A stretch of DNA of 64,000 nt from Microbacterium rhizosphaerae (lineage in GTDB: Bacteria; Actinomycetota; Actinomycetes; Actinomycetales; Microbacteriaceae). The notes under the pieces are model-generated. The model was not told the origin of the DNA, searched no databases, and saw nothing but the letters and a program-made list of their open reading frames with translations. The translations under genes were made by a program, and so were the position numbers. The stretch spans positions 3,658,001 through 3,722,000 of the forward strand of contig NZ_CP139368.1 of the NCBI RefSeq assembly GCF_034120055.1, written 5' to 3'. Positions 21,785-33,340 of this stretch are shown here, piece after piece. The stretch's first letter is position 1; each line of letters starts with the position of its first letter.

Positions 21785-23035
21785 TTATCCGTTTGCTGCG
21801 GACTTGATCGCGTCCTGCATGTTCTTCAGGCCGCTGTTGACGTCGGCCGCCCCGGAGAGCACCTGGAAGGCGTTCACCTGGATGGCCTGCGTGACCGCGG
21901 GGTAGAACGGCGTGACGGGGCGCGGAACCGCCTTCAGGATCGACTGCTTCAGCACGGGCAGGTACGGGTTCGTCTTGATCAGATCCTGATCGTCGTACAG
22001 GGCCGTGATGACCGGGGCGAGGGATGCCTTCTGCACGAAGATCTTCTGGATCTCCTGGCTCTCGAGGAACTGCAGGAAGTCGTGCGCCGTCGCCTGGTGC
22101 TTCGAGTACGCCGAGATGGCCGCGTTGTGGCCACCCAGCGAGGAGGCCGTCACGAGCGGGGCGATCGCGAACTTGTCCTTGACCACCGAGGTGGCGTCGG
22201 TCGTCGCGAGGCTGTAGGCGTAGGGCCAGTTGCGCATGAAGAGGTACTTGCCCGCCTCGAACGCCTGACGGCTCGGCTCCTCCATGAACGTCAGGTTCTC
22301 CTGGGGGATGTTGCCGTTCTTGAAGGCGTCGACCAACTGCTGCATGCCCTTCTTGGCCGCGTCCGTCTCCAGGTTCGGCGTCTTGCCGTCCGACTTGACG
22401 ATCTCGCCGCCCGCACCGTTGATGCTCTCGGCCACGTTGACCGTCAGGCCCTCGTACTGCTTGAACTGGCCGGCGTAGCAGTTGATGCCTGCGGCCTTGG
22501 CCTTCGCGCAGTCGGCCATCATCTCGTCCCACGTGGTCGGGGGCGTGGAGATGATGTCCTTGCGGTAGTACAGCAGGCCGCCGTCCGACGACACCGGTGC
22601 GGCATAGAGCTTGCCGATGTAGGTCGCCGACTTCACCGTGGCGGGCAGGAGGTTGCTCGTGTCGATCTTGAGGGCGCCCTCGAGCGGCTGCAGCCACCCC
22701 TTGGCCGCGAACTCGGCCGTCCACACCACGTCGACGCTGACGACGTCGTAGTTGGAGTTCTTGGCCTGGAAATTCTGCACGAGGTCGTCGTGCTGCTGGT
22801 TGGCGTCCGTGGACTGCTCCTTGAGCGTGACCTTCTCGCTCGGGTGCTTCTGGTTCCACATGTCGATGACGGGCTGGACGACGTTGTTGTTGTCCTTGCC
22901 CTGCACGTACGTGATCGGACCGCGGCTGCTGTTCGCCGCGCCGCTGGAAGAGCCTCCTCCACTGCCCGAACAACCGCTCAGCGCCAGTCCTCCGACCGCG
23001 AGAGCGGTCGCGAAGACAAGTGTTGCTTTCTTCAC
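21785..23035 (-). CDS. Sugar-binding lipoprotein of the alpha-glucoside ABC system
   Basis: 416 residues. Start GTG at 23035 chosen because GAGGAG is 5 bases upstream and the signal peptide then begins 'VKKATLVFATALAVGG', followed by lipobox LSGC (C22). This is a Sec-type lipoprotein signal without twin arginines. The mature part is an extracytoplasmic solute-binding protein family 1 fold ('VVSVDVVWTAEFAAKGWLQP', 'APVSSDGGLLYYRKDI'), similar to ThuE/AglE-like trehalose or maltose binders. Together with the divergent alpha-glucosidase this suggests import of maltose, trehalose or isomaltose-type sugars. Repressed through the operators upstream. Confidence 0.92.
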   Translation of the reverse strand: MKKATLVFATALAVGGLALSGCSGSGGGSSSGAANSSRGPITYVQGKDNNNVVQPVIDMWNQKHPSEKVTLKEQSTDANQQHDDLVQNFQAKNSNYDVVSVDVVWTAEFAAKGWLQPLEGALKIDTSNLLPATVKSATYIGKLYAAPVSSDGGLLYYRKDIISTPPTTWDEMMADCAKAKAAGINCYAGQFKQYEGLTVNVAESINGAGGEIVKSDGKTPNLETDAAKKGMQQLVDAFKNGNIPQENLTFMEEPSRQAFEAGKYLFMRNWPYAYSLATTDATSVVKDKFAIAPLVTASSLGGHNAAISAYSKHQATAHDFLQFLESQEIQKIFVQKASLAPVITALYDDQDLIKTNPYLPVLKQSILKAVPRPVTPFYPAVTQAIQVNAFQVLSGAADVNSGLKNMQDAIKSAANG

Positions 23036-24936: not shown

Positions 24937-25821
24937 TCAGAGCGGCAGCTCGGCGCTCCACGGCGGGTTCGCGCCGGGGCGCGAGACGGTGATGGCCGCA
25001 CTCTCGAGCGCGACCTGGAGCACGTGCGCCCACCCGAGCGCCGGCGCCCCGCCCGCTGCCACGACGGCGGCCCCTTCGTCAGCCGCGACGGCCGCCAGGA
25101 GCCCGGACATGAAGGCGTCGCCCGCGCCCACGGTGTCGGCGACGACCACCGGGCGCGCCGGGACGTCCAGCACGATGTCGTCCGCCAGGGCGACGCATCC
25201 CGCCGGCCCGCGGGTGGCGATCGCGAGCCGGACGCCGAGCGCCTGGAACCGCCGCAGCACGCCCTCGAGCGACTCGCCGGGGTAGAGCCATGCGGCGTCC
25301 TCGTCGCTGAGCTTCACCACGTGGCTCGCGGCCGCGAGGCGCTCGGTCTGCACGATCGCCTCCGCACGCGGACCGATGAGGGCCGGGCGGATGTTGGGGT
25401 CGAAGCTCACGAGCGTTCGCCGGTCCACAGCCTCGAGGGCATCGTTCACGACGGACGCGCCGGGCTCGAGGTAGGCGCCGATCGAGCCGATGTGGACCAG
25501 GTCGAAGCTGGCGAGGTCGACCGGCGGCAGGTCCCACACGACGTCGAAGTCGTATCGCGCGACTCCTTCGTCGTCCAGCACGACGACCGCCGCCGACGTC
25601 CGCTCGTCCACGACCGACCCGTCCAGGAGGGCGACTCCCGAGCCGGTCACATGCTCCTCGATCAGCCGCCCGTGCTCGTCGCTCCCGATGCGCGTGGTCA
25701 TCGAGACATCCATCCCGAGACGCGCGAGTCCGACAGCGACGTTCACGGGAGAGCCGCCCGGATGCGGCACTCCGCGGATGACGTCGACGAGCGCCTCCCC
25801 GATCACGGCCACCCGTGTCAT
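24937..25821 (-). CDS. PfkB-family sugar kinase, probable fructokinase
   Basis: 294 residues. 'MTRVAVIGEALVDVI' start, substrate-binding 'HPGGSPVNVAVGLARLG' and the C-terminal signature 'DTVGAGDAFMSG' (229-240, catalytic base D235) define a ribokinase/PfkB enzyme. It is last in the fructan operon and overlaps the GH32 stop by 4 bases, so fructose set free by the two GH32 enzymes is the expected substrate, giving fructose-6-phosphate. Cytoplasmic. Substrate from context, family from sequence. Confidence 0.9.
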   Translation of the reverse strand: MTRVAVIGEALVDVIRGVPHPGGSPVNVAVGLARLGMDVSMTTRIGSDEHGRLIEEHVTGSGVALLDGSVVDERTSAAVVVLDDEGVARYDFDVVWDLPPVDLASFDLVHIGSIGAYLEPGASVVNDALEAVDRRTLVSFDPNIRPALIGPRAEAIVQTERLAAASHVVKLSDEDAAWLYPGESLEGVLRRFQALGVRLAIATRGPAGCVALADDIVLDVPARPVVVADTVGAGDAFMSGLLAAVAADEGAAVVAAGGAPALGWAHVLQVALESAAITVSRPGANPPWSAELPL

Positions 25822-27206
25822 GCACCACCTCCGAGATCGATCACGGCAAGAGTCTCGACGACAGCGGTGCCCTCTGTCGAGACCTCGAGCCGCCGCGCAT
25901 CGCCGAGCAGTGCCAGGTCGGTGATCGAGCGCAGACCTCCGGCAGCGAACACCTCGACCGAGCAGGTGTCCACGACGATGGTGACATCGACGGCGTCCGC
26001 ATCGCCGGGCACGCAGGCGGATTCGACGCTCGGGAAGCCGGGATGGATCTCACCCGCCGCCCTGCGGTCGACGGTGACGCGGCCGCGCCGGCAGCCGACC
26101 GACACCCGGCCTTCGGCGCCGACCAGGTCGATGCAGACTCCGCCGCCATCCCCGCCCAGGCTCGCGCGCACATCGATGCGAGCCGCAGCGGGAAGCTCCG
26201 CCGTGGGTTCGATCGCCTCACCCGCGGGGAGGATCGGCTGCGACCGCAGCTGAGGACGCCCATCCACCGTGACGAGGCTCAGCCGCCGCGGCACCGTCAT
26301 GGAGCCGCGCCACGGCGAGGTCGGCACTTCGGCTGCATAGTCCCAATTGCTCATCCACGCGATCAGCGTCCGCTCGTGCAGCGGCAGCCCGTTGAACGTC
26401 ACACCGGCATAGCAGTCGCGGCCGAGATCGAGCCAGTCGACGTCGGCGAGGTCGTCGCCGACCGGCCGATCCGGTGTGAACCGCACACCGTCGAAGGATC
26501 CCACGACGTACTGCGTGCCCGAGCCGCCGGCGACCCCGCCGGGGTAGAGGCTGATGACGAGCACCCACCGGATGTCGTCCGGGTCGTCGTCCAGCGCCAG
26601 CGGGAACAGGTCCGGGCACTCCCACGCCCCTCCGACGGCGCCGGCCGGCCCGTAGGCCGAGAGGTACTCCCACGATCGCAGGTCGTCCGAGCGGTAGAGC
26701 ACGATCTGCCGGTCCTCGGCCTCCACGGCGACCATGACCCAGAACGCGTCCGCCCCGTCGCCGTAGCGGAAGACCTTGGGATCGCGGAAGTCCCGCGATC
26801 CCCGATCGAGCACCGGGTTGCCGGCGTGCTTCGTCCACGTGATTCCACCGTCCACGCTGTAGGCGAGAGCCTGCCGCTGGATCAGCGTGACCGCGTCCAC
26901 CGAGGTGTAGACCGCGACGAGCGGCGTCTGCCCGGGGGCGCCGAACCCGCTCGTGTCGTCGGCATCCACGACGGCCGAACCGGAGAAGATCCACTCGCCC
27001 TCGTCGCACGGGATGGCGACCGGATGCTCCTCCCACCGCATCAGATCGACGCTCGAGGCGTGCCCCCAGCTCATGTGGCTGTGGAGGTCGCCGAAAGGAT
27101 TGTGCTGGAAGAAGAGGTGGTAGCGACCCTCGTGGAAGACGAGTCCGTTGGGGTCGTTCAGCCAGTTGCGCGCCGCGGTGAAGTGGATGAGGGGCCGGCG
27201 CGTCAT
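25818..27206 (-). CDS. GH32 beta-fructosidase (levanase/sucrase type), cytoplasmic
   Basis: 462 residues. GH32 landmarks are complete: 'NWLNDPNG' with nucleophile D18, 'FRDPKVF' (transition-state Asp at 142) and 'ECPDLF' with acid/base E196; the C-terminal beta-sandwich follows ('VDTCSVEVFAAGG'). The canonical WxNDPNG block fits exo-acting inulinase/levanase and sucrose-6-phosphate hydrolase. No signal peptide, so it works on imported sucrose or fructo-oligosaccharides. ATGA overlaps with tatA upstream and with the kinase downstream make expression tightly coupled. Confidence 0.93.
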   Translation of the reverse strand: MTRRPLIHFTAARNWLNDPNGLVFHEGRYHLFFQHNPFGDLHSHMSWGHASSVDLMRWEEHPVAIPCDEGEWIFSGSAVVDADDTSGFGAPGQTPLVAVYTSVDAVTLIQRQALAYSVDGGITWTKHAGNPVLDRGSRDFRDPKVFRYGDGADAFWVMVAVEAEDRQIVLYRSDDLRSWEYLSAYGPAGAVGGAWECPDLFPLALDDDPDDIRWVLVISLYPGGVAGGSGTQYVVGSFDGVRFTPDRPVGDDLADVDWLDLGRDCYAGVTFNGLPLHERTLIAWMSNWDYAAEVPTSPWRGSMTVPRRLSLVTVDGRPQLRSQPILPAGEAIEPTAELPAAARIDVRASLGGDGGGVCIDLVGAEGRVSVGCRRGRVTVDRRAAGEIHPGFPSVESACVPGDADAVDVTIVVDTCSVEVFAAGGLRSITDLALLGDARRLEVSTEGTAVVETLAVIDLGGGA

Positions 27207-27400
27207 CCGGACACATCCGTGATGCGGTCGGTCTCGAGCGGAGCCGCGGCGCCGTCCTCGTGCAGGGCCTTCATCTCGCCCTTGAACACGCGGGCCGACT
27301 GCCCGACGCTCTTGGCGAGAGCGGGCAGCTTGGCGGCGCCGAACAGCAGGATGAGGACGGCGACGATCAGCAGCAGATGCGGCCAGCCGAGCATTCCCAT
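27203..27400 (-). CDS. tatA: TatA/E-type twin-arginine translocase subunit inside a sugar operon
   Basis: 65 residues: a single N-terminal span (about residues 6-20), the 'LFGAAKLP' hinge and an amphipathic helix 'LAKSVGQSARVFKGEMK', all hallmarks of TatA/TatE. AAGGAG precedes the ATG by 8 bases. It lies between two GH32 genes and overlaps the second by 4 bases, so it is an integral operon member. The operon's own binding protein (30697-32124) carries a twin-arginine lipoprotein signal, which gives this TatA an obvious client. tatB and tatC are not in the window, so it would work with a general TatBC. Confidence 0.85.
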   Translation of the reverse strand: MGMLGWPHLLLIVAVLILLFGAAKLPALAKSVGQSARVFKGEMKALHEDGAAAPLETDRITDVSG

Positions 27401-27427
27401 GTGAGTTCTCCTTCGGAAGTGGTGGCG

Positions 27428-28840
27428 TCAGTCGCGCCGGTTGATGATGAGAGAGGCGAGCGATGCCTCGCCGTCGGACGCGAAGAATCCGATCCGCGAC
27501 CCCGAGCGGGCGTAGAACCGCGTGCTCAGCGCGACCTGGTCGTCGACGACCACGACGACGACCTCTCCGTCGGTGAGCACGTCGATCGTGTGACGGCCGG
27601 CGTCCAGGCGCACAGGCCGTTCGAATTCGAACGGCACATCGCCGGAGATCTGCCACTGCTCGGCGCCGGTGACGGTGCGCGGCCACCGGTCGAAGACCAC
27701 GCGGTGGCGCCGCGGCTCGAGCTGCACGATGCCGCCCTCTCCCTCGGCGTCCGAGCGCAGCACGAGTCCGACCGGTCCCGAGCCCACCGCGATGTCGATC
27801 TGCGCCCGCAGGTGGAACCGGTCGGGAAGCTCTTCGGTGCCGACGACCGCGCGATACGAGTCGGAAGCCGACAGGGTCAGGGGCGAGGGCAGACCGGTCG
27901 CCACCGGCACGTCGAAGCTCGCCGTGAGCTCCGCGGGAAGGTGGAAGGCGAGGGAGCCGTCGGGGCGCTGGGCCGCCTCCAGCACCGACATCGTGCCGGC
28001 CCACTGCCACCGCCCGTCATCGGAGTCGCCCTCCCGTGTCGCGATCCAGCCGACGAAGAAGCGCCGTCCGTCTCGGCCGACGGTCTTGGCGGCGTAGAAC
28101 GCGCGCGTGTCGATCGCATCGTCGTCCGGTGCGAGCCAGGGTCCTTCGAGGGAACGGGCCATCCGATACCGCGTGCAGAAGCTGTCGCTGAACTCCGAGT
28201 AGACGAGGTACCACCAGTCGTTCCACCGGAAGACGTCGGGGCACTCGTGGGCGACGAACCTGCGCGGATCCCACAAGGGCTCGACGGGTGTCCATGCGCG
28301 GAGATCCTCGGAGACCAACTGCGCGACCGTTCCGCGCCGACGGTCGGGCCCGTCGGTGTGGCGCGCGGCGACCAGCATCCGCCAGTTCACTCCGTCGTGG
28401 AAGACGAACGGATCCCGCCAGTCGCCGGACTCGTAGCCGTCCGGCGCACCGAACGTCAGCTCCGGATGCTTCCGCCACGGCCCGTCGGGGGTCGCGCTCG
28501 TGGCGTGCGCCACGAGCTGCAGGGGGCGACCGTCCGCCCCGCGCCGCCCGGGATTCTGCGCCGTCGAGAACAGGTGCCAGGTGACGTCCGGCCCCTCGGC
28601 GACCGAGCCCGTGTAGACGTTGAAGTCCTCGGACTCCGGCCCGCCCGACGCCACAGCCTCACCCCGGTCGTCGAAGCCAACGAAGTCCGTCGTCGTGACC
28701 AGGTGCCACGGCATCCCCGGCTTCGGCTCGCGGCGATCGTCGTACAGGTACCAGAGGTGGAAGACCCCGTCGTGCTCGGCCGGGATGACGTCTCCGACCC
28801 AGGCGGGCGCCGGACGGAAGAAGACGGGCGCGTCGCTCAT
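27428..28840 (-). CDS. Second GH32-like enzyme, variant N-terminal motif
   Basis: 470 residues. In place of WxNDPNG it has 'AWVGDVIPAEHDGVFHLWYL', placing the presumed nucleophile at D17, as in the 'GD(V/T)MP' branch of GH32. The other two carboxylates are conserved: 'DWRDPFVF' (D143) and 'HECPDVF' (E199). A C-terminal sandwich ends in 'SLIINRRD'. No signal peptide. Retention of all three acids suggests activity, probably on a different fructoside from that of the 25818-27206 enzyme (for example a linkage or end-product variant); this is inference. It overlaps the permease stop by 4 bases and precedes tatA by 27 bases. Confidence 0.82.
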   Translation of the reverse strand: MSDAPVFFRPAPAWVGDVIPAEHDGVFHLWYLYDDRREPKPGMPWHLVTTTDFVGFDDRGEAVASGGPESEDFNVYTGSVAEGPDVTWHLFSTAQNPGRRGADGRPLQLVAHATSATPDGPWRKHPELTFGAPDGYESGDWRDPFVFHDGVNWRMLVAARHTDGPDRRRGTVAQLVSEDLRAWTPVEPLWDPRRFVAHECPDVFRWNDWWYLVYSEFSDSFCTRYRMARSLEGPWLAPDDDAIDTRAFYAAKTVGRDGRRFFVGWIATREGDSDDGRWQWAGTMSVLEAAQRPDGSLAFHLPAELTASFDVPVATGLPSPLTLSASDSYRAVVGTEELPDRFHLRAQIDIAVGSGPVGLVLRSDAEGEGGIVQLEPRRHRVVFDRWPRTVTGAEQWQISGDVPFEFERPVRLDAGRHTIDVLTDGEVVVVVVDDQVALSTRFYARSGSRIGFFASDGEASLASLIINRRD

Positions 28841-29736
28841 CGGGAGGAGCCCGCCGTCACTCCGGCGATGAAGTACCGCTGCGCGACGATGAACAGCAGC
28901 ACGCTCGGAATCATCGCGATCACGACGCCCGCGAGCACCACCGAGATGGACCCGGTTCCGAGGTTGCCCTGCAGTCCGACGAGCCCGAGAGGCAGCGTGA
29001 ACTTGTCCTGCGACTGCAGGAAGATCAGCGGACGGTAGAACTCGGCCCAGAACCCGGAGAAGTTCAGGATCGCGAGCGTCGCGATCGCAGGCGCCGCCAT
29101 CCGGGCGTAGACGTGCCGGAACACGCCCCACTGGCTCGCACCGTCGATGCGCGCGGCCTCGCCGAGCTCGCGCGGCATCTGCATGAAGTACTGGCGCATC
29201 AGGAACGTTCCGAAGGCGCTCCCGAGCGCCGGGACGACCAGCGCCATCAGGCTGTCATTGAGGCCCAGCGTCTTGATGATGATGAACACGGGGATGATGA
29301 TCGTCTGCAGCGGCACCATCATCGTCGCCAGGAACGCCCCGAAGATCACGTTCTTGCCGGGGAACGAGATCATCGCGAACGCGTACCCGGACAGCGTGCA
29401 CGTCACGGTCTGCCCCACGACGATCAGCACGGTCACGATGACGCTGTTCATGAAGAACGTGCCGATCGGGATCTGCTGGAACACCGCGGCGTAGTTGCTG
29501 AAATCGGGATGCAGGGGAAGCCATTGCGGCGGGTTGTCGAACGCGTCGGCCGGGGTGCGCAGCGAGGTCGTCACCGTCCACAGCAGCGGACCGAGGGCGA
29601 AGACCGCCGCGATGATGAGCACGACGAGTCCGACGAACTTGCCGACTTTGAACACCCCTCGCCGACGCCCTGCGACGGGGTGCATCGGGTGGGCTTGGCC
29701 GCTGACGACGGCTGCCGTGTCGATGGTCGTGCTCAT
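28837..29736 (-). CDS. Carbohydrate ABC transporter permease, MalG type (fructan system)
   Basis: 299 residues, six predicted spans. The EAA loop is 'GEAARIDGASQWGVFRHVY', and the protein ends 'AQRYFIAGVTAGSSR', typical for MalG-like permeases. ATGA-type overlaps join it to the MalF partner before it and the GH32-like gene after it. The frame extends upstream to 30171 but that part is shadow of the MalF gene. It probably passes sucrose or short fructans into the cell; an ATPase gene is again absent. Confidence 0.93.
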   Translation of the reverse strand: MSTTIDTAAVVSGQAHPMHPVAGRRRGVFKVGKFVGLVVLIIAAVFALGPLLWTVTTSLRTPADAFDNPPQWLPLHPDFSNYAAVFQQIPIGTFFMNSVIVTVLIVVGQTVTCTLSGYAFAMISFPGKNVIFGAFLATMMVPLQTIIIPVFIIIKTLGLNDSLMALVVPALGSAFGTFLMRQYFMQMPRELGEAARIDGASQWGVFRHVYARMAAPAIATLAILNFSGFWAEFYRPLIFLQSQDKFTLPLGLVGLQGNLGTGSISVVLAGVVIAMIPSVLLFIVAQRYFIAGVTAGSSR

Positions 29737-30695
29737 TGGTAGAACACCAGCTTCCGGGAGGCGAGGAACTGCAGTCCGGTGATCGCGAGGATCAGGAGCA
29801 GAAGGACGATGGCGATCGCGGACGAGTAGCCGAACTGGAGGTTCTGGAACCCGGTCTGGTACATCGAGATCGTCGCGGTGGTGGTGGCCGTGCCCGGCCC
29901 GCCCTTGGTCATGATGAACGGCTGGTCGAACAGCTGCATCGCGTTGATGAGCGAGATGACGGCGGCGAACAGGATCGTCGGGCTGATGAGCGGGATCTTG
30001 ATCCGGAACAGCGTGCGCACAGGACCGGCGCCGTCGATGGATGACGCCTCCAGCACATCCTCCGGGACGGACATCAGGGCGGCGACGAACAGCACGAAGG
30101 TGAATCCGACCTGCTGCCAGACGACGATCAGCACGATCGTCACCTGCGCGCCGAGCGGGCTGGTCAGCCACGGGATGGCGGGGATGCCGAACAGCCCCAG
30201 GTAGTAGTTGATCGCTCCGAACTGATAGTCGAAGAGATAGCCCATGAAGATCGAGACCGCGGCGGTGGACGCCAGAAGCGGCAGATAGAAGGTCGTGCGG
30301 AAGAACGTCCTGCCGAAAGTCGACGTGCGCTGATTGACGAGCACCGCCAGGAACAGGCCGAGCGAGAGCTGGAGCACGACGATCGCGACCGCCATGGCGA
30401 TCGTCACCCCGAACGACTGCAGCACGGGCTCATCGGAGAAGAACCGCTGATAGTTGCCCAGGCCGGCCCACGTCGGCGGACTGATGACGTCCCAGTCGAA
30501 GAACGAGAGGCCGAGCGAGGCGAGGATCGGGAGGAAGGTGAACACGGTCACGAACAGCATCGCGAGACCGATCATCGCGAAACCGAAGACGGCCTCCCGC
30601 CGGGCCGTCCGCCGCGCGCCGGGGCGGCGGCGGACGGGCCGGGCAGGTCGGTCTTCGCGCGACGGAGCCGGCGGCGCGGAGACGACGGCGGTCAT
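29733..30695 (-). CDS. Carbohydrate ABC transporter permease, MalF type (fructan system)
   Basis: 320 residues from the ATG at 30695, 1 base after the SBP stop. Arg/Pro-rich cytoplasmic N-terminus (about 45 residues), then six spans; 'LEASSIDGAGPVRTLFRIKI' is the ATPase-contact loop and 'MTKGGPGTATTTATISMYQ' the MalF/UgpA-type signature. Longer upstream starts would run into the SBP gene. Works with the MalG product at 28837-29736. Confidence 0.93.
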   Translation of the reverse strand: MTAVVSAPPAPSREDRPARPVRRRPGARRTARREAVFGFAMIGLAMLFVTVFTFLPILASLGLSFFDWDVISPPTWAGLGNYQRFFSDEPVLQSFGVTIAMAVAIVVLQLSLGLFLAVLVNQRTSTFGRTFFRTTFYLPLLASTAAVSIFMGYLFDYQFGAINYYLGLFGIPAIPWLTSPLGAQVTIVLIVVWQQVGFTFVLFVAALMSVPEDVLEASSIDGAGPVRTLFRIKIPLISPTILFAAVISLINAMQLFDQPFIMTKGGPGTATTTATISMYQTGFQNLQFGYSSAIAIVLLLLILAITGLQFLASRKLVFYQ

Positions 30696-30696
30696 G

Positions 30697-32124
30697 TCAG
30701 CTGCCCTTCGAGATCTTCTCGAGATCCGCCTGCATGGCGTCCAGCGACGGCTTCGCACGCCCGGCGGAGACCGCCTGCGTGGTGCGCTGGTTCAGCGAGG
30801 TGGCCAGCGCGTTGTAGTACGGCGGTGCCGAGATCGGCACCGAGCCGTCGAGCTGGTCGTAGAAGACCTTCCAGTTGTCGGGCCCGGTCGGCGCGTAGCG
30901 CTGCGCGGTCATCAGAGACTTGCGTCCGGGGGTCGTCACGTTGCCGGGGAACATGATGTCGAAGCTCTCCGGCCGGATCATCATCTTGATGACCTCCCAG
31001 GCGGCATCCTTCTTCTGCGACGACTCGAAGATCGAGTACCCGCCGGTGCCGAACAGCGACTTGTTGCTCTTCCAGCGGGGGAAGAACTGGACGTTGAAGC
31101 TGCCCGGAGCCATCCCCGCGTTGTGGAGGCCGCCGGCCCAGAATCCGCCGCCGATCGACATGCCGATCCGGCCCGACGAGAACAGGCCCTGCAGCGTGCC
31201 GCCGCCGCCCACATCCGGCGAGGGCGAGAGACCGGCCTTCTGCATGTCGATGACGTACTGCAGCGCCTCGACCGCGGCATCCGAGTTCGCGGTGGGCGTG
31301 CCCCACTTCCAGCCGCCCTGGCGGCCCGCGATGGCGGGGTCGCCGGCGGCATACGCCTTGCTCCACAGCCAGTCGCCACCGGGATACTTGCCCTCTTCGA
31401 GGAGGTTGCCGTCGTTGGCGTACAGGAACGAGGTCCAGCTGCCCCAGAGGCGCACCACCCAGTCGAACGGCAGGATCTGGCCGCCGGTGGACTTGATCTG
31501 CTGCGCCGTCGTGTGGAAGTCGTCCATGGTCCACGTCGGCCCGGGCGCCGCGGCGCCGGCCTTCTGGAGCACCCCGCTGTTGAAGAACATGCTTCCGGCG
31601 TTGAAGCTGTCCGGCATGTTGTACAGGTGCCCCTCGAACATCATCGCCTCGATGAGCGCGGGGTGGATGTCGTTGAAGTACGTGTCCTTGAGGGTGGCCA
31701 TGTCCTTCGTGACGTACGAGTCGAGCGGCGTGATGAGCTTCTTCGACGCCATGAGCTGCAAGCCCTCCGTCGCCACGCTCACGAGGTCGGGCGCCTGGCC
31801 GGCGGCGATGAGGGTGAGCACCTTCGCGAGGAAGTCGTTCCAGTCCGTGCCGTTGATCGCCGTGACCTTGATCGACAGATCCTTGTCGATCTTCTTGACC
31901 TGCGGCTGCAGCGAGTTCTGCAGTGTCGTGGCGGCCTTCTGGTCGCCGAAGTACAGCATGTTCAGGGTTCCCGTGCTGGACGACCCGCCTCCGCTGCCGG
32001 ATGCCGTCGGCGCGCAGCCGGTGAGACCCGTGCCGACGCCGGCGAGCGCGATCCCCGCCAGCCCCAGGCCGCCGAGCCGCAACAGATCACGACGGCTCAC
32101 GTCCGGTCCGAATGCTCGTGCCAT
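30697..32124 (-). CDS. Twin-arginine-signal sugar-binding lipoprotein (fructan system)
   Basis: 475 residues from the ATG at 32124 (AGAGAGGAG 6 bases before; a TTG codon directly upstream is not needed). The signal is 'PDVSRRDLLRLGGLGLAGIA' with R11-R12, a hydrophobic core and lipobox LTGC (C37), i.e. a Tat-dependent lipoprotein. The mature part is an extracytoplasmic solute-binding family 1 protein ('QKAGLSPSPDVGGGGTLQGL', 'FFPRWKSNKSLFGTGGYSIF'). It heads the operon with two permeases, two GH32 enzymes, tatA and fructokinase, so the ligand is probably sucrose or fructo-oligosaccharide. The folded-state export implied by Tat is unusual beside the Sec-type SBP at 21785-23035. Confidence 0.9.
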   Translation of the reverse strand: MARAFGPDVSRRDLLRLGGLGLAGIALAGVGTGLTGCAPTASGSGGGSSSTGTLNMLYFGDQKAATTLQNSLQPQVKKIDKDLSIKVTAINGTDWNDFLAKVLTLIAAGQAPDLVSVATEGLQLMASKKLITPLDSYVTKDMATLKDTYFNDIHPALIEAMMFEGHLYNMPDSFNAGSMFFNSGVLQKAGAAAPGPTWTMDDFHTTAQQIKSTGGQILPFDWVVRLWGSWTSFLYANDGNLLEEGKYPGGDWLWSKAYAAGDPAIAGRQGGWKWGTPTANSDAAVEALQYVIDMQKAGLSPSPDVGGGGTLQGLFSSGRIGMSIGGGFWAGGLHNAGMAPGSFNVQFFPRWKSNKSLFGTGGYSIFESSQKKDAAWEVIKMMIRPESFDIMFPGNVTTPGRKSLMTAQRYAPTGPDNWKVFYDQLDGSVPISAPPYYNALATSLNQRTTQAVSAGRAKPSLDAMQADLEKISKGS

Positions 32125-32229: not shown

Positions 32230-32243
32230 ATTTAGCGCTAAAT
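32230..32243. promoter_or_regulatory. LacI operator palindrome ATTTAGCGCTAAAT
   Basis: A perfect 14-base palindrome with central CG, 54 bases before the LacI start. A TGTAAT -10 box lies at 32255-32260; its -35 region falls inside the palindrome, so the regulator would repress itself as well as the leftward fructan operon. Confidence 0.75.
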
Positions 32244-32296: not shown

Positions 32297-33340
32297 ATGA
32301 CGGCAGCACGAAGGCCGACGCTCGCCGATGTCGCGAAGCTGTCCGGACTGTCCAAGACCGCCGTCAGTCTCATCCTGAACAACCGTCCGGGCACGCGCCT
32401 GTCGGAGGACGCCGTCGAGCGCGCGCATGCGGCCGCTGCCCAGCTGGGCTACAAGCCGAACCCCGCCGCACAGAGCCTGCGATCGGGCAAGACACGCTCG
32501 ATCGGCTTCATCTCCGACCAGGTGACGATCACGCGCTTCGCGTCGGCCATGGTGCGCGGCACTCTGCGCGCCGCGAAGGAGCTCGGTCACACCGTCCTGA
32601 TCGCGGAGACCGGCGACCACGTCTCACAGCTGGAAGAGGCCTTCGACGAGATGATCGACCGCCGCGTCGACGGCGTGATCGTCGGGCTGATGGCGGCGCG
32701 CATGGTGGACGTGCCGGCTGCACCTCACGGCGTCCCCGTCGTCATCGTCAACGGCACGACTCCCGACGACCTGCCGAGCGTGCTGCCCGATGAATACGCC
32801 GCCGGGCGGGCGATGGCGACGCTGCTGCTCGAGGCCGGCCATCGGCGCATCGGCTTCATCGGCGATGTCCCTCACATCGCCGGGGATCTCCGGCGGTCCG
32901 CGACGATCGCGCGGCGCCTCGCCGGCATCCGGGAGGCCCTCGCCGATCGCGACGTCACGCCCGTCGAAGTCGTGGTGGACGATTGGACACCGCAGATCGG
33001 CTACGCCGAGGCGCACCGCATGCTGTCGGCCCACCGCGACCTCACCGCCGTGATCGCCGCCACCGACGGCGTCGCGTTCGGCGTGTACCAGGCGATCGCC
33101 GACCTCGGCCTGCGCGTGCCGCACGACATCTCGGTCGTCTCGTTCGACGACGAGGAGCTGGCGAACCTCGTCCGTCCCGGCCTCACGACCGCGCGGCTGC
33201 CGTACGAGGAGATGGCGCGGCACGGCGTGGAGATGCTGCTCGGGGATCGCGAACTCGCCCACGAGCTGCTCCCGATGCCCGTCATCCGGCGCGACTCGGT
33301 GAGAGAGCTCGCAGAGGCGCCGGCCGTCGCCGGCGACTGA
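32297..33340 (+). CDS. LacI-family regulator of the fructan/sucrose operon
   Basis: 347 residues from the ATG with GGAGG 9 bases upstream. HTH 'TLADVAKLSGLSKTAVSLIL' then hinge and effector domain ('VIAATDGVAFGVYQAIADLG', 'DISVVSFDDEELA'). Divergent to the seven-gene fructan operon across 172 bases that hold the palindrome ATTTAGCGCTAAAT and two related repeats. Induction by sucrose, fructose or a fructoside is inferred from the genes controlled. The stop is directly followed by the convergent gluconokinase stop. Confidence 0.9.
   Translation: MTAARRPTLADVAKLSGLSKTAVSLILNNRPGTRLSEDAVERAHAAAAQLGYKPNPAAQSLRSGKTRSIGFISDQVTITRFASAMVRGTLRAAKELGHTVLIAETGDHVSQLEEAFDEMIDRRVDGVIVGLMAARMVDVPAAPHGVPVVIVNGTTPDDLPSVLPDEYAAGRAMATLLLEAGHRRIGFIGDVPHIAGDLRRSATIARRLAGIREALADRDVTPVEVVVDDWTPQIGYAEAHRMLSAHRDLTAVIAATDGVAFGVYQAIADLGLRVPHDISVVSFDDEELANLVRPGLTTARLPYEEMARHGVEMLLGDRELAHELLPMPVIRRDSVRELAEAPAVAGD

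Follow-up and report, generated by a model that had tools for sequence, protein, structure and literature searches.

A question raised by the 64,000-nucleotide stretch of Microbacterium rhizosphaerae DNA analysed here (the window; contig NZ_CP139368.1, positions 3,658,001 to 3,722,000) is why a sugar operon should contain a copy of tatA, a gene of the twin-arginine translocation (Tat) system, together with the gene for a solute-binding protein (SBP) that bears a twin-arginine (RR) signal. The seven-gene operon on the minus strand, as set out in a preliminary description of this DNA, is borne out by gene layout and family matches alike: from 32124 to 24937 it comprises, head to tail, the SBP gene, two permease genes, GH32 b, tatA, GH32 a and a PfkB kinase gene, with a LacI-family regulator gene divergent at its head and no ATPase gene in the operon. 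Because neither of its two GH32-type hydrolases has a signal peptide and its kinase is fructokinase-like, the operon would import a fructose-containing oligosaccharide. The contiguous same-strand layout supports the conclusion that tatA and the gene of a predicted Tat client belong to a single operon, and we lean towards the view that this accessory TatA is co-expressed with its client and works with the housekeeping TatC, as an extra supply for an abundant, induced SBP. The translational coupling of tatA described earlier holds on its downstream side, where the tatA stop overlaps the start of GH32 a (ATGA, 4 bp), and fails on its upstream side, where GH32 b ends 27 bp earlier and tatA has its own AAGGAG; in Shine–Dalgarno strength, tatA does not stand out among the operon genes.

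The SBP starts MARAFGPDVSRRDLLRLGGLGLAGIALAGVGTGLTGC, in which SRRDLLR is followed by a hydrophobic core and then by an LTGC lipobox. The RR pair is invariant across 10 aligned SBP orthologues and is present in all 51 homologues of a named collection (52 loci, from which L222, with 21% identity, was dropped), 48 of them read by script and three (L208, L213 and L221) by eye, including proteins from Nocardioides, Kribbella, Streptomyces, Sinomonas and Curtobacterium; in the L213 and L221 homologues a lipobox was not found. Because this RR signal is conserved, the binding lipoprotein would leave the cell folded, via Tat. Within the same genome, RR occurs in only 4/30 SBP_bac_1 proteins read, one of them weak (30 of 39 matches were covered, and the script gave no convincing N-terminus for L224, L226 and L236), and RR is thus not the default among the SBPs of this genome. 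The contrast previously drawn with the neighbouring sugar SBP (21788-22906) stands in so far as that protein is without an RR signal. RR is therefore a constant feature of this family of SBPs and does not depend on a local tatA. The SBP orthologue of Microbacterium bovistercoris (L062:11931-13406 / L193:10001-11410) has one in-frame stop, i.e. a sequencing error or a pseudogene, and intact orthologues occur elsewhere. An SBP locus closely resembling the actinobacterial ones (L184) lies on a contig labelled Acidobacteriaceae and is possibly mis-binned.

TatA and TatE proteins are characterized by a short N-terminal transmembrane helix, an FG hinge and an amphipathic helix, all of which are recognizable by eye in the operon protein. 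It matches PF02416 with 54.9 bits (cut-off 21) and the tatAE model TIGR01411 with 54.8 bits (cut-off 53.9), does not reach the stricter NCBI equivalog NF001854 (66.7 of 72 bits) and, with 26.6 of 56.5 bits against the TatB model TIGR01410, is not a TatB. The genome, a single contig of 4.06 Mb, contains two PF02416 genes above the cut-off. As the second is a canonical tatA (C1:2233845) beside the genome's sole tatC (C1:2233051), the possibility that the operon gene is the only tatA, which had been put forward as a point to check, is rejected; a TatB-like gene (C1:2602266) remains below the cut-off of its model (75.9 of 96). Since there is a single TatC, the operon TatA, if functional, must work with the housekeeping TatC, and a canonical-type TatA without a TatC of its own is more in keeping with extra supply than with a separate translocase.

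Over residues 1-56 the operon TatA and the canonical TatA of the genome are 75% identical (the C-terminal tails differ), and two motifs indicate that the operon TatA is of the canonical type. It contains SARVFKGEM, the motif SAR[VI]F[KR][GS]EM being present in 49/49 canonical TatA proteins examined in the genus and in 1/48 accessory ones, and the operon TatA of Microbacterium mangrovi MUSC 115 (L171:7745-7936), the sister case discussed below, is one residue off SARVFKGEM. The second motif, GWPH, occurs in both operon copies, in 29/49 canonical TatA proteins, including that of the window genome, and in 0/48 accessory ones; these 29 are the proteins that score highest against the operon TatA, and 19 lower-scoring canonical proteins as well as M. 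mangrovi's own are without it. In the tree comparison of operon and main TatA that had been suggested, the operon TatA groups with canonical TatA; in this tree, L166 and L132_12842 make up a spurious outgroup owing to wrongly trimmed cores, and the three-member operon clade has no support value because it sits at the root used. With motifs and tree both placing the operon TatA among the canonical ones, an origin from one of the accessory tat sets of the genus is rejected. A chance open reading frame is likewise rejected by the curated family matches, the coupling to the neighbouring gene and purifying selection: in the one pair available, window versus M. mangrovi, tatA has a dN/dS of 0.245, with values of 0.145-0.389 for the other operon genes.

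In the mechanism that we favour, tatA would have entered the operon in the common ancestor of its window and M. mangrovi versions, or would have spread with the operon. The operon TatA would then be made, presumably by co-transcription, whenever the operon is expressed, and would supply additional protomers to translocons that assemble around the single TatC of the cell. The presumed benefit is that extra TatA would keep export of the abundant induced SBP from running short. If TatA supply does limit the export of induced clients, an operon-borne TatA would represent a built-in scaling of the pathway to demand.

Elsewhere in the genus, too, accessory tatA genes keep company with RR-signal genes. 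More than one TatA match was present in 64/247 genus genomes, and 41 accessory tatA genes at 40 loci, not chosen at random and mainly lower-scoring, were sampled from 81 extra copies in 62 genomes, of which some may be assembly duplicates (G202). An RR-signal gene lies within four genes of 30 of these 41, and also near 9/11 accessory tatA genes for which no tatC was detected. RR genes account for 34/267 genes near accessory tatA versus 3/185 farther away (p = 5e-6) and for 2/91 near canonical tatA, where 34/267 refers to a rule whose N-region had been widened from 36 to 70 residues after missed lipoproteins were noticed. When contexts were collapsed by hand, with L148 and L158 scored negative and L159 set aside, 8/14 were positive (p 8e-5; 0.009 with twice the baseline). 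Among the RR neighbours, Pfam names sugar SBPs, GH127 and GH43 as well as a PHP-domain protein, a heparinase-like protein and a Dioxygenase_C lipoprotein, and the theme found in the window, i.e. a sugar ATP-binding cassette (ABC) operon that combines an RR SBP with tatA or tatA-tatC, recurs in L131/L142 and L134/L141. Going by these gene neighbourhoods, the link between tatA and RR clients does not look incidental, despite the failure of strict coupling described below. The pattern of accessory tat genes beside RR genes would also be of use in locating Tat substrates, and spare Tat systems, among the Actinobacteria.

Some of these loci have features of their own. At L131:8024-13872 and L142:2342-8254, the sugar ABC operon and RR SBP are accompanied by a gene for 750-763 aa (FAD_oxidored in L131), and tatA, without detected tatC, is the terminal gene of the operon in L131 and divergent in L142. 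A recurring cassette found at 18/40 loci (L133, L143, L145, L147, L149-L156, L160, L162, L163, L165, L167 and L168) places a gene for an RR lipoprotein of ~320-364 aa (Dioxygenase_C in L133) beside tatA, usually together with tatC and tatB; tatC was not detected close to the cassette tatA of L133, L149 and L155. The sole accessory TatA with SARVFKGEM (L136) is encoded on a 129,823-base second contig, possibly a plasmid (G083:C2), with no tatC detected and no RR gene found nearby by the final RR rule.

Tat genes are also present at homologues of the fructan locus itself. The order tatA-tatB-tatC is found at this locus in a Leifsonia metagenome-assembled genome (L177) and in G422 (L117), and Curtobacterium fructan loci have tatC-tatA-tatB (L185), tatC-tatA (L189, L191) or tatA-tatB (L183). 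Their TatA proteins fall into two clades of the TatA tree (support 100 and 93), both separate from the window TatA. A tat gene is present in the stretch examined at 6/51 named homologous loci; when the window and L117 are included, tat genes occur at 8/22 loci of the family and at 0/31 others (an earlier split was 21 versus 32, before L204 was counted in the family, and the tatA-less G744 operon would give 23). For 21 family loci, the probability that three tat placements fall within 20 kb by chance is ~1e-5, assuming uniform placement, three independent events and ~0.34 accessory tatA copies per genus genome (the 81 extra copies plus those of the window genome and M. mangrovi, over 247 genomes). 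A wider reading, tentative and close to an even chance in our judgement, is that Tat capacity in the Microbacteriaceae is modular: tatA or tatABC may have been captured repeatedly by operons of Tat clients (sugar-binding lipoproteins, glycoside hydrolases and dioxygenase-like lipoproteins), with the fructan locus as a hot spot of at least three separate captures and the machinery induced together with its cargo.

How closely, then, does tatA follow the RR signal among relatives of the operon? A search of 366 genus genomes with the SBP as query (E <= 1e-150) yielded eight orthologues, all with RR, and two of the eight operons have tatA, namely those of the window and of M. mangrovi MUSC 115 (G100; L171), which are sisters. 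A one-to-one tie between RR and tatA is therefore not supported, RR being present in 8/8 genus and 51/51 named proteins and tatA in 2/8; the correlation of tatA presence with RR that had been suggested has no variation to work on, and the idea that the two vary together is rejected because RR is invariant. In all six genus operons that lack tatA, the GH32 genes are immediate neighbours of each other, which makes tatA an insertion between coupled genes, or implies loss elsewhere. When SBP, permeases and GH32 b are concatenated, the resulting tree joins the window and M. mangrovi operons as sisters with 100% support, also with the G129 and G744 operons added; Psychromicrobium is next to this pair, and the six tatA-less genus operons form another clade. 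Together, two tatA-bearing and six tatA-less natural relatives offer a ready comparison.

Several observations weigh against an extra supply of TatA for this client. The same RR SBP occurs without tatA in 6/8 genus orthologues, and 45/51 named homologues combine an RR SBP with no tat gene in the stretch examined, as called with Microbacteriaceae seeds at a threshold of 35 bits and with L217, L218 and likewise L181 ending two bases past the SBP, so that their downstream side lies outside the stretch. Psychromicrobium xiongbiense is next in the operon tree and has the nearest GH32 a, yet has no tatA. M. mangrovi's canonical TatA (L293; G100:C2:12000-14800) is without GWPH, unlike its operon TatA; the operon copy thus did not arise recently from the housekeeping gene of the species, and a lineage of the GWPH type is the probable source of this tatA, which would have reached M. 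mangrovi together with the operon by either descent or transfer. The dN/dS value is from one pair and 54 codons, the stricter first RR rule gave 17/267 near versus 3/185 far (p = 0.011), and 18/30 RR-positive loci represent one recurring context, with L148 and L158 doubtful. One alternative is a passenger gene, i.e. a duplicated tatA, unrelated to the SBP, that entered a coupled operon with no polar harm and was kept for a weak general supply of TatA or because its loss would disrupt coupling to the downstream GH32: tatA is confined to one small clade and is absent from 6/8 genus orthologues. We consider this unlikely, since purifying selection on tatA resembles that on its neighbours, and tat genes also occur at homologous loci and beside other RR genes.

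Extra supply for the SBP also has to be set against a supply for other co-induced Tat proteins, e.g. secreted GH32 enzymes, with the operon TatA serving a general sugar-induced Tat load. In Curtobacterium, a GH32 gene with its own RR start follows tatC-tatA (L191:15702-18646, on the same contig as L121, and L189:15704-18663), and in the M. rhizosphaerae genome, outside the window, C1:3757146-3768860 (L263, L264) encodes two secreted-looking GH32 proteins, one starting MTTLSKRRTLIALAAAVGLAAAGVAPAFA, that are possible Tat clients. The operon, however, has a candidate of its own in the RR SBP, co-regulation of the distant GH32 genes is a supposition and KRR is an imperfect motif, which makes this alternative distinctly improbable.

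With regard to known systems, the operon resembles what we take to be its importer class, the CUT1-type sugar ABC importers with GH32 in Actinobacteria, which likewise combine an SBP, two permeases, GH32, a fructokinase-like kinase and LacI with no ATPase gene in the operon; the RR signal on the SBP and the embedded tatA set the window apart. Links between TatA and a client have precedents: the gene order in Bacillus subtilis is phoD-tatAd-tatCd, and tatE of Pseudomonas stutzeri is placed in the nos cluster. The tatCd operons of B. subtilis are associated with phoD (PMC3827258), so that, as in the window, Tat components are tied to a client gene (PMC3827258, PMC4361764), and TatE, with NosZ as its client, and TatAd, with PhoD, are named as TatA proteins that are substrate-specific (PMC4361764). 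With its own TatC, the B. subtilis set is nearer to the Leifsonia-like tatABC and Curtobacterium tatC-tatA fructan loci than to the window; P. stutzeri TatE, a TatA-type protein for the one client NosZ (PMC4361764), corresponds to the role proposed for the operon TatA and differs in its redox client and in being a proteobacterial TatE. Campylobacter jejuni has a second TatA-type gene, tatA2 (cj0786), in its nap operon and expressed from the nap operon promoter; as in the window, a Tat client and a TatA gene share an operon, and the TatA gene is missing from many species, whereas the client is a redox enzyme instead of a sugar-binding lipoprotein, and the window TatA looks canonical (PMC4148689). 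By analogy, the C. jejuni result cautions that operon position need not imply a dedicated role.

The claim that an operon-linked TatA is undescribed is thus too wide, client-linked TatA being known already (PMC4148689, PMC4361764, PMC3827258), and keeps its force for the sugar-importer client: in the open-access literature searched, with subscription papers mostly outside, there was no report of tatA within a sugar ABC-importer operon. The window case is a client-linked TatA as already known, with a sugar-importer client as its new feature. Its tatA shares an operon with the gene of a predicted Tat client, housekeeping tatA and tatC lie elsewhere, and its presence does not track the client across relatives (2/8 in the genus; 6/51 named loci). 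Specificity instead of dosage, i.e. an operon TatA that would recognize the SBP mature domain and escort the SBP to the TatC complex by analogy with TatE/NosZ and TatAd/PhoD, could draw on the reported binding of TatA to mature domains and the substrate-specific TatA proteins (PMC4361764) and on the dissimilar C-terminal tail, and is very unlikely given the 75% identity to canonical TatA over residues 1-56 and the same SBP in relatives without an operon tatA.

Table 1. Features of the tatA-containing sugar operon and its regulatory region, in window coordinates.
Feature	Position	Strand	Remarks
LacI-family regulator	32297..33337	+	divergent from operon; PF00356/PF13377 above cut-off; bounds from gene caller, start uncertain
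Perfect 14-bp palindrome ATTTAGCGCTAAAT, candidate LacI operator	32230..32243	.	between LacI and SBP
ABC solute-binding lipoprotein, RR signal, predicted Tat client	30697..32124	-	PF01547, 85.4 bits
ABC permease, MalF/UgpA type	29733..30695	-	PF00528
ABC permease, MalG/UgpE type	28837..29736	-	PF00528
GH32-type hydrolase b	27428..28840	-	PF00251, 82.2 bits (cut-off 22.1); no signal peptide seen by eye
Accessory tatA, canonical type	27203..27400	-	65 aa; PF02416 and TIGR01411
GH32-type hydrolase a	25818..27206	-	PF00251, 286.6 bits (cut-off 22.1); no signal peptide seen by eye
PfkB-family kinase, fructokinase-like	24937..25821	-	PF00294; best NCBIfam match is fructokinase, below cut-off

The palindrome in the space between the LacI and SBP genes, a candidate operator, is not preserved as such in the seven relatives compared; near its position, a TAAATCGGTT-like box is seen in several of the seven.

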